NCBI RefSeq assembly: GCF_029633865.1
Contig: NC_079219.1
Span: 58,414,850 to 58,478,849 of the forward strand
Direction: 5' to 3'
DNA: 64,000 nt
Origin: Lampris incognitus
Lineage: Eukaryota; Chordata; Actinopteri; Lampriformes; Lampridae
Part shown: positions 45,643 to 47,191 of the stretch, piece after piece
How the letters are laid out: each line of letters starts with the position of its first letter
How positions within the stretch are numbered: position 1 is the stretch's first letter
The notes under the pieces: model-generated
Told to the model about the DNA's origin: nothing
Seen by the model: only the letters and a program-made list of their open reading frames with translations
The model's database searches: none
Translations under genes and position numbers: made by a program

Positions 45643-47191
45643 TTAATCCTCCTCCTCGTCATCAGCTCCTCCAGCTCCAGCCTGGCCCTTCTTGGCGTTC
45701 TTTCTCTTGACGCGGCCTGGGCGTCCACCGCCGTAAGGTGACCTCAGTGAGAAGTCAATGTGTTTCTGGCTGTCCAGGCGAACCACGAATGAGGGGATGT
45801 TCACCACCTGCTTGCGCACACTGCAAGACATTGAGGGGATCGTAAGGGTAACTTGCAGACACATGCCAGGCTCATTTATTCCTTGCACAGCTTCTGCTTT
45901 CAATCAACGATATCATGGGAACAGGGCAGCTAAGCAAGAGGTTGCCCCCAGCAGACCAACAAATGTATTTCTTTAGAAACTGGTCCATTGACATTGAAGG
46001 GGGGGACAAGTCAATTTATGGAAAGGCCTCATTGACGAGGAATTCTTGACACCACAAAAAATCTGACTGTCAATAGTTAAATCATTGGCCTGAATAAGAA
46101 CATGCTGTACTTCAGTTGCCCGAGGTGCAATCCTCCATACATTCATTACCTGACAGCCACAAATCTAGTGGCACAGTCTGGGCCCTCTTGGTTGGCAGGA
46201 TTGGCTCTGGGCAATGTTTACCGACAAGGTATACGGCTTTGACACCGAATTGACCTTGCTGAAATGTTAAAACTGATCTCAGCGGAGAGCAACACAAGTT
46301 GGTGGCCCTCTGATGAAAGAGGAAGCATTGAAAGTTTCTCATGAGTTTGGTGCAGTGTGACTTTCCAAAACTACATTTTGCCGCTTTGACGAAGTCTAAG
46401 GGCTCCATGACTAGGTGCTTACCGGATGTGCCTCTGGCGGATAAGGACACGAGCATGGTGGATGCTCTTGGCAAGACCAAGCTTGAAGACCTGTGTCTGC
46501 AGCCTCCTCTCCAGGAAATCCTCAACCTTCAGACCCAGGATGTAATCCAGCTTCATCTTGCCCTCGTCCAACACGCCAATCCTCACCAGACGCCTCAACA
46601 GGGCATTACCTGAGACGTATCAAACAGGCACCTCAGAGACTGCATCACTGCCAGTTTATTTTTTAAACTCAGTGACTACAGGTATAACATCTGTACAGCC
46701 CAAAATACACCCGAGCAATTGTTTTGTTATGCAACTTGGCCTCATTGACGAGGAATTCTTGACATCATAGAAAATATGACAGTTGATAGTTAAATCATCG
46801 GCCAATTCAAAAACAAAGCTGAAATTTAACCAAATATTCATTACCTTCAAACAGACGTTTGGGATCCTTCTCGTCCAGAGTAAGCAGCTCTCTGGCAGCC
46901 TTACGGATCTTGGCCAATGTGAACTTGACCCTCCATACCTCACGTTTGTTCCTCAGACCATACTCGCCTGAGAGAAGATGGTTCAAGTTGCAAGGTTGAT
47001 ATGGAATTCAAAACAATATATGATATGTGCTAGAGAGAGTAGAGCTTTATTCCGTGTCATGATGCTAGGTGATGCTAACTGAGTCAAATCGTACCAATAA
47101 GTTTCAACTCCTGGTCGAGGCGGGACTTCTCGAAGGGACGACGAGGGGTGACGTAAGTCTTGCGACAAACCCAACTCCTGGCAACGGGCAT
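45643..47191 (-). CDS. rps9: 40S ribosomal protein S9 (uS4)
   Basis: Four coding exons: 47191-47095, 46967-46845, 46609-46423 and 45820-45643. They sum to 585 nt (194 aa), the usual vertebrate length. A non-coding first exon lies at 48321-48288. The protein starts [20 protein letters not shown] and ends in the acidic tail GGADDEEED. The S4-type RNA-binding region is present ([34 protein letters not shown]). It is a core protein of the small ribosomal subunit that binds 18S rRNA early in assembly and affects decoding accuracy. A TOP/TATA promoter precedes it. Introns 3 and 4 each hold a 66-nt snoRNA-like segment, and intron 1 holds a hAT MITE. No internal stop or frameshift, so this is the functional gene and not a retrocopy. 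Confidence 0.98.
46025..46090 (-). ncRNA. Candidate C/D-type snoRNA, intron 4 of rps9
   Basis: 66 nt, about 86% identical to the segment in the next intron. In rps9 sense it begins ggcc then aatgattt (weak C box) and ends caatga then ggcc (weak D box), with ggcc/ggcc able to close a terminal stem. It contains gaattcctcgt, complementary to the conserved 18S rRNA stretch ACGAGGAAUUC as remembered. The boxes are degenerate, so the class is uncertain. Confidence 0.55.
46738..46803 (-). ncRNA. Candidate C/D-type snoRNA, intron 3 of rps9
   Basis: Paralogue of 46025-46090 in the neighbouring intron. In rps9 sense it has ggcc, then cgatgattt (better C-box match), the same guide-like gaattcctcgt, and caatga plus ggcc at the end. 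The 3' end is about 130 nt from the downstream splice acceptor. Flanking intron sequence is not conserved between the two copies. Confidence 0.58.

Follow-up and report, generated by a model that had tools for sequence, protein, structure and literature searches.

Two box C/D snoRNA-like segments in neighbouring rps9 introns of a fish, predicted to guide 18S rRNA methylation at the equivalent of yeast Gm1572

Analysis of the rps9 gene in the window, that is, the whole 64-kb stretch of DNA that was analysed, revealed two related 66-nt segments, copies A and B, which lie in consecutive introns and are read on the rps9 strand (Table 1). Based on their box geometry, their place in the host gene and their complementarity to 18S rRNA, we consider it probable (about 0.7) that they are a cis-duplicated pair of intron-encoded box C/D snoRNAs, which would form a kink-turn with a U-A pair and guide 2'-O-methylation of the residue equivalent to yeast Gm1572. 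In this reading, a short terminal stem would bring AUGAUUU and AUGA together as the kink-turn of each copy, and the guide that directly precedes box D would pair with 18S ACGAGGAAUUC. The G facing guide base five, which corresponds to Gm1572 in yeast and G1636 in human, would then be 2'-O-methylated by bound fibrillarin. From these features we infer transcription, processing, RNP assembly and methylation, as well as a direction of duplication, in which one copy would be the parent that gave rise to the other in the adjacent intron.

Table 1. Features of the rps9 gene and of the two 66-nt copies (positions in the window)
Feature	Position	Strand	Remarks
rps9 coding region (host gene)	45643..47191	-	four coding exons
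rps9 intron hosting copy A	45821..46422	-	602 nt, GT...AG
rps9 intron hosting copy B	46610..46844	-	235 nt, GT...AG
copy A, box C/D-like, 66 nt	46025..46090	-	identity to copy B, geometry scan, sub-threshold C/D family matches
copy B, box C/D-like, 66 nt	46738..46803	-	identity to copy A, repeat search, geometry scan, sub-threshold C/D matches
copy A terminal stem GGCC	3' arm 46025..46028, 5' arm 46087-46090	-	+1 A-U pair outside
copy B terminal stem GGCC	3' arm 46738..46741, 5' arm 46800-46803	-	+2 U-A pairs outside
copy A box C AUGAUUU	46079..46085	-	geometry scan
copy B box C AUGAUUU	46792..46798	-	geometry scan
copy A putative C' GUGGUGU, weak	46049..46055	-	read from sequence
copy B putative C' AUGAUGU	46762..46768	-	6/7 to consensus; read from sequence
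copy A guide GAAUUCCUCGU	46035..46045	-	antisense to 18S ACGAGGAAUUC, D+3 to D+13
copy B guide GAAUUCCUCGU	46748..46758	-	antisense to 18S ACGAGGAAUUC
copy A box D AUGA	46029..46032	-	its A could pair with box C sixth base U
copy B box D AUGA	46742..46745	-	geometry scan

Joining of the rps9 exons gave an open frame of 194 amino acids, 192 of which were identical to RPS9; together with the GT...AG ends of both introns, this bore out the original prediction that adjacent rps9 introns are the hosts. All four genome matches of the protein fell at this single locus, so that no further rps9 gene from which the pair could have come was found. Ungapped alignment of the two copies revealed identity at 58 of the 66 positions (87.9%), close to the 86% or so that had been predicted for segments with exactly these limits, and the ggcc ends said to be kept were identical in both. 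The edges were sharp: 10-base blocks lying wholly outside the pair, taken in the same register, gave 1-5 matches, as anticipated from the claim that the surrounding intron sequence is unlike. The next-best 66-mer in the window matched copy A at 33 and copy B at 32 of 66 positions, and a repeat search of 45500-47900 returned the A/B pair as the longest direct-repeat family. The identical GAATTCCTCGT noted earlier in both copies was present twice in the window, both times on the minus strand and inside the pair. In the fish's own 1.48-Gb genome, a copy search that skips very common words recovered only the two places of the pair, both in rps9 (both first-look candidates were scored), which disfavours the alternative of a dispersed repeat. 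The pair as such is confirmed, and the proposed duplication between introns of one host is supported.

Several other features were located around the host gene. A strong hairpin lies just downstream of rps9 at 45317-45389 (fold energy -52.9 kcal/mol and z -9.2 for the 86 nt of 45310-45395); the one genomic relative found is about 75% alike and a near-perfect palindrome, and the hairpin may represent either a hairpin RNA or a small mobile element of palindromic type. Just upstream of the coding region, at 47381-47556, is a MITE-like inverted repeat with two 79-nt arms that are 90% complementary, where matches to microRNA families scored under their gathering scores. An open frame with a zf-RVT domain (48653-49264, minus strand; Pfam E 1.9e-09), perhaps a LINE remnant, lies beside rps9, and ARAGORN called a candidate tRNA-Ser (CGA), which may be a gene or a SINE-like copy, at 38229-38317 on the minus strand.

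Read along the host strand, copies A and B share the layout GGCC-R-AUGAUUU ... CAAGAAUUCCUCGUCA-AUGA-GGCC, in which box C agrees with the consensus RUGAUGA at 5 of 7 positions and box D with CUGA at 3 of 4. In the consensus kink-turn, base 6 of box C (G) is set against base 1 of box D (C). The off-consensus bases at these two places, U in box C and A in box D, could pair U-A and so replace the G-C, and the bases next to that pair (U and A) could pair as well. The boxes had originally been described as C-box-like and D-box-like and weak; both motifs are present in both copies and weak as said, and what is newly recognised is that this may be a compensated weakness, since a U-A pair between the deviating bases could stand in for the canonical G-C. 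A kink-turn consists of two A-G pairs, one U-U pair and a 3-nt bulge (PMC6770171, PMC8162545; papers are cited here by PMC number for the parts of them that were accessible). The bases for both A-G pairs, the U-U pair and the bulge (AAU or GAU) were kept, as was, in both copies, the UGA of box D used for the U-U and A-G contacts. The terminal stem with 3-nt bulge that defines a box C/D snoRNA was formed by GGCC/GGCC plus one or two flanking pairs, and the first pair outside GGCC was A-U in copy A versus U-A in copy B, a change on both sides.

The C'/D' motif was poor, above all in copy A, with no clear D' box, and the kink-turn was strictly consensus at neither site of the RNA. In the accessible text of PMC6770171, a consensus kink-turn, terminal or internal, is required; a full-length RNA whose internal kink-turn was good withstood U-U substitutions, activity was reduced where such a kink-turn was lacking, and the substitutions weakened protein binding of U14 in extracts, while guide activity in oocytes stayed intact after some kink-turn substitutions. 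Because two defining boxes agree only partly with their consensus, membership of the pair among box C/D snoRNAs is likely rather than proven.

The window was also scanned for C/D geometry (a 4-bp stem, [AG]TGAT, a stem-II pair and TGA) with a pattern written after the pair was seen; the scan returned two sites, which were exactly the pair, and a single site in total from 10 dinucleotide shuffles of the window. The fold energies of the copies were slightly below those of shuffles (z -1.6 and -1.2, with 11 and 28 of 200 shuffles folding as well); in the minimum-energy folds part of box C was paired with the guide end, and the terminal stem was present and the kink-turn absent. Fold energy was thus uninformative for the pair.

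Directly upstream of box D, where about 10 nt or more of rRNA complementarity are expected, GAAUUCCUCGU is an exact 11-nt complement of 18S ACGAGGAAUUC starting at D+3; the predicted host-strand antisense match to this 18S stretch is therefore borne out, exactly, in both copies. Counted upstream from box D, the fifth base of the guide lies opposite the G of 18S ACGAGG within ACGAGGAAUUC. This G we take to be human G1636 and yeast G1572. In the 18S tails used for this numbering, G was found at yeast 1572 and 1575, C at yeast 1639, A at human 1678 and C at human 1703, and the distance from the target G to the more 3' Cm1703 (human) and Cm1639 (yeast) is 67 nt in both. An inserted antisense piece of 18S rDNA was ruled out, as the match ends after 11 nt.

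The target word was kept in six of the eight 18S-like loci examined, which came from 21 own-genome matches listed. Three of them (L003-L005) had the G and the target word at the 67-nt distance seen in human and yeast; in L006 the G was present and the word after it changed, L008 was out of register, and L007, L009 and L010 were without the anchor word. As a separate observation on these copies, L003, L004, L005, L006 and L012, the last being a longer stretch of the L004 place, were joined to non-18S sequence immediately 5' of 18S position 1500 or so, at a common junction, as would result from insertion at a specific site or from a chimaeric copy that has been repeated. The copies also differed just upstream of the target word, with CCGTGAACGAGG in L003-L005 versus CCATGAACGAGG in L007-L009 and the target word the same, which hints at more than one 18S type or at pseudogenes.

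The methylated base of a C/D guide is set by the D+5 rule (PMC5199042, PMC8162545), and Gm1572 is among the ribose methylations mapped in yeast, its peak disappearing when snR57 is missing (PMC5199042). The m7G1575 made by yeast Bud23 is three bases from this site (PMC5199042), and the snR57 target is numbered G1570 in two EMG1 papers (PMC2954994, PMC4633970). Yeast snR57, likewise a box C/D RNA that follows the D+5 rule, acts on the 18S residue that is the predicted target of the fish pair, whereas the fish RNA is intronic in rps9, in two copies and 66 nt long; the shared target may reflect convergence. By target, snR57 is likely to be the functional counterpart of the fish pair. The human box C/D guides SNORD82 and SNORD43, for 18S Am1678 and Cm1703 (PMC5597630), have targets nearby, yet these are different residues, lying 42 and 67 nt downstream by human numbering, and SNORD82 was ruled out as the identity of the guide, A1678 being 42 nt downstream of the target G. 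Duplication within one ribosomal-protein gene has a likeness in sponge RPL13A, where snoRNA copies were duplicated into neighbouring introns with their functional elements kept (PMC3412847); these copies are H/ACA, in contrast to the C/D-like fish pair in rps9.

Among the vertebrates, the accessible part of the human 18S table shows nothing between Gm1490 and Am1678 (PMC5597630). For X. laevis, Um252 is the sole named frog 18S site absent from human in the accessible text of PMC8797249, so the target G is not named as such a site, and the nine human-only 18S sites named there include Um1668 and do not include the target G. The mark is thus missing from the human list and unnamed as frog-specific, and is therefore not a vertebrate constant. 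No matching G was among the planarian 18S sites printed in the accessible part of PMC11649923; likewise, in the parts available, neither 1636 nor 1572 was found in PMC8393311, neither snR57 nor 1572 in PMC8351944 and PMC8817022, and neither rps9 nor snR57 in PMC2653536 and PMC3349704. The literature searched, mostly open-access, yielded neither an rps9-hosted fish snoRNA nor a vertebrate guide for the Gm1572 equivalent.

A covariance search of both segments, suggested earlier as a check, did not place them in a known family: Rfam gave no match at gathering score in the whole window. The best sub-threshold C/D matches were snoR77Y at 19.8 and 18.6 bits (52 needed) and snoR122 at 16.6 bits (36 needed); these matches were full-length and on the correct strand, yet far under the gathering scores, and the pair does not belong to either family. 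In the same search the C/D family ceN28 matched a coding exon at 17.5 bits, which places the C/D scores of the pair at background level. No snR57-named family was among the sub-threshold Rfam matches to the window. The pattern GAATTCCTCGTNNNTGA occurred at three places in the genome and its backwards control also at three, so the count is at chance level; the full geometry was present at two of the three, which were the pair, and the third had RTGAT 73 bases upstream with the geometry incomplete. A canonical parent guide, sought as the CTGA version AATTCCTCGTNNCTGA, was rejected, with one genome match (backwards control 6) and no RTGAT within 100 bases upstream of it, and no other canonical guide in the genome had at least 10 nt of the guide at that spacing. 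The viral contig collection gave no homologues. In the prokaryotic contig collection, seven matches to a 19-base pattern came from bacterial MAGs, none with the full geometry, and the one that had RTGAT upstream was taken as chance.

Copies A and B differ at eight positions of the segment (5, 19, 20, 23, 28, 34, 36 and 39). None of these falls within the 32 positions of the terminal stem, box C, the guide with its spacer, and box D (P about 0.003 for random placement of eight differences, with a partition chosen after reading). Selection on a C/D guide would produce such a pattern; gene conversion is another process that could preserve likeness in parts of the copies. The putative C' box holds two of the eight (positions 36 and 39), an argument against conservation of a C'/D' unit. 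The sequence preceding D' also differs between the copies; since the D' side is not conserved, a guide function from D' is doubtful.

These data bear on an explanation that we regard as unlikely, namely that the snoRNA pair, once canonical, is losing or past its function, with drifted boxes, little RNP and unmethylated 18S. It would account for the off-consensus boxes C, D and C'/D', for the lack of an Rfam match at threshold, and for the differences inside the putative C' box. The position in the introns also fits it: the 3' end of the RNA lies 204 nt (copy A) and 128 nt (copy B) from the 3' splice site, which exceeds the reported optimum, a distance of some 50 nt on the upstream side of the branch point (PMC8162545), and thus counts against the snoRNA reading in general. 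However, the departures in box C and box D compensate each other, copies A and B share boxes C and D and the guide without a difference, all eight changes lying elsewhere (a state that recent gene conversion could mimic), and no canonical working parent was recovered, the one match of AATTCCTCGTNNCTGA being without box C. The decaying copy pair that the original prediction had allowed for is therefore weakened by the sparing of boxes C and D, guide and stem, yet it retains the two differences in C'.

It is quite improbable that the pair is a genuine C/D snoRNA that does not methylate the G and acts instead in chaperoning or processing of 18S, or from its D' side on another RNA. The absence of the target G from the human 18S list in the accessible part of PMC5597630 would agree with such a role, as would the genetic links of yeast snR57 to Emg1 and 40S assembly (PMC2954994, PMC4633970); the guide spacing, however, with pairing from D+3, suits D+5 methylation, the target coincides with a G known to be methylated in yeast (PMC5199042), and the stretch upstream of D' is not the same in the two copies. 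Very improbable is another intronic element, for splicing or transcription, or a chance survivor of intron duplication with a coincidental 18S match: snoRNA expression rests on prediction, and an 11-nt rRNA match would arise by chance in some 1-3% of cases for a block of this size (a rough estimate), but the sharp 66-nt edges coincide with the inverted GGCC stem and the C/D geometry, and the target falls on a yeast Nm site.

The snoRNA reading of the original prediction is thus supported by box geometry, rps9 hosting and 18S complementarity, as a prediction from sequence. What is likely to be new is that a fish would have a guide for a mark of the yeast type, one that is apparently absent from the mapped tetrapods. 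We propose more tentatively, as a possibility somewhat short of probable, that there is a vertebrate lineage with a duplicated, working guide of the Gm1572 type having a co-varied U-A kink-turn, the mark being ancestral and lost in tetrapods or reinvented in fish. Fishes are reported to account for about half of the cases in which snoRNA genes are missing, which can point to a fish-specific methylation pattern (accessible part of PMC3349704); the present pair would exemplify a gain or retention of a snoRNA on the fish side.

If the pair is real, C/D boxes that are read as weak can be co-varied pairs, and searches based on consensus or family, such as the Rfam scan used here, can miss them, which argues for scanning by kink-turn pairing in preference to box consensus. 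Fish and tetrapods would then differ in rRNA methylation at a functionally central site of 18S, and the pair would offer, in a single gene, a vertebrate test of what the snR57-type mark does.
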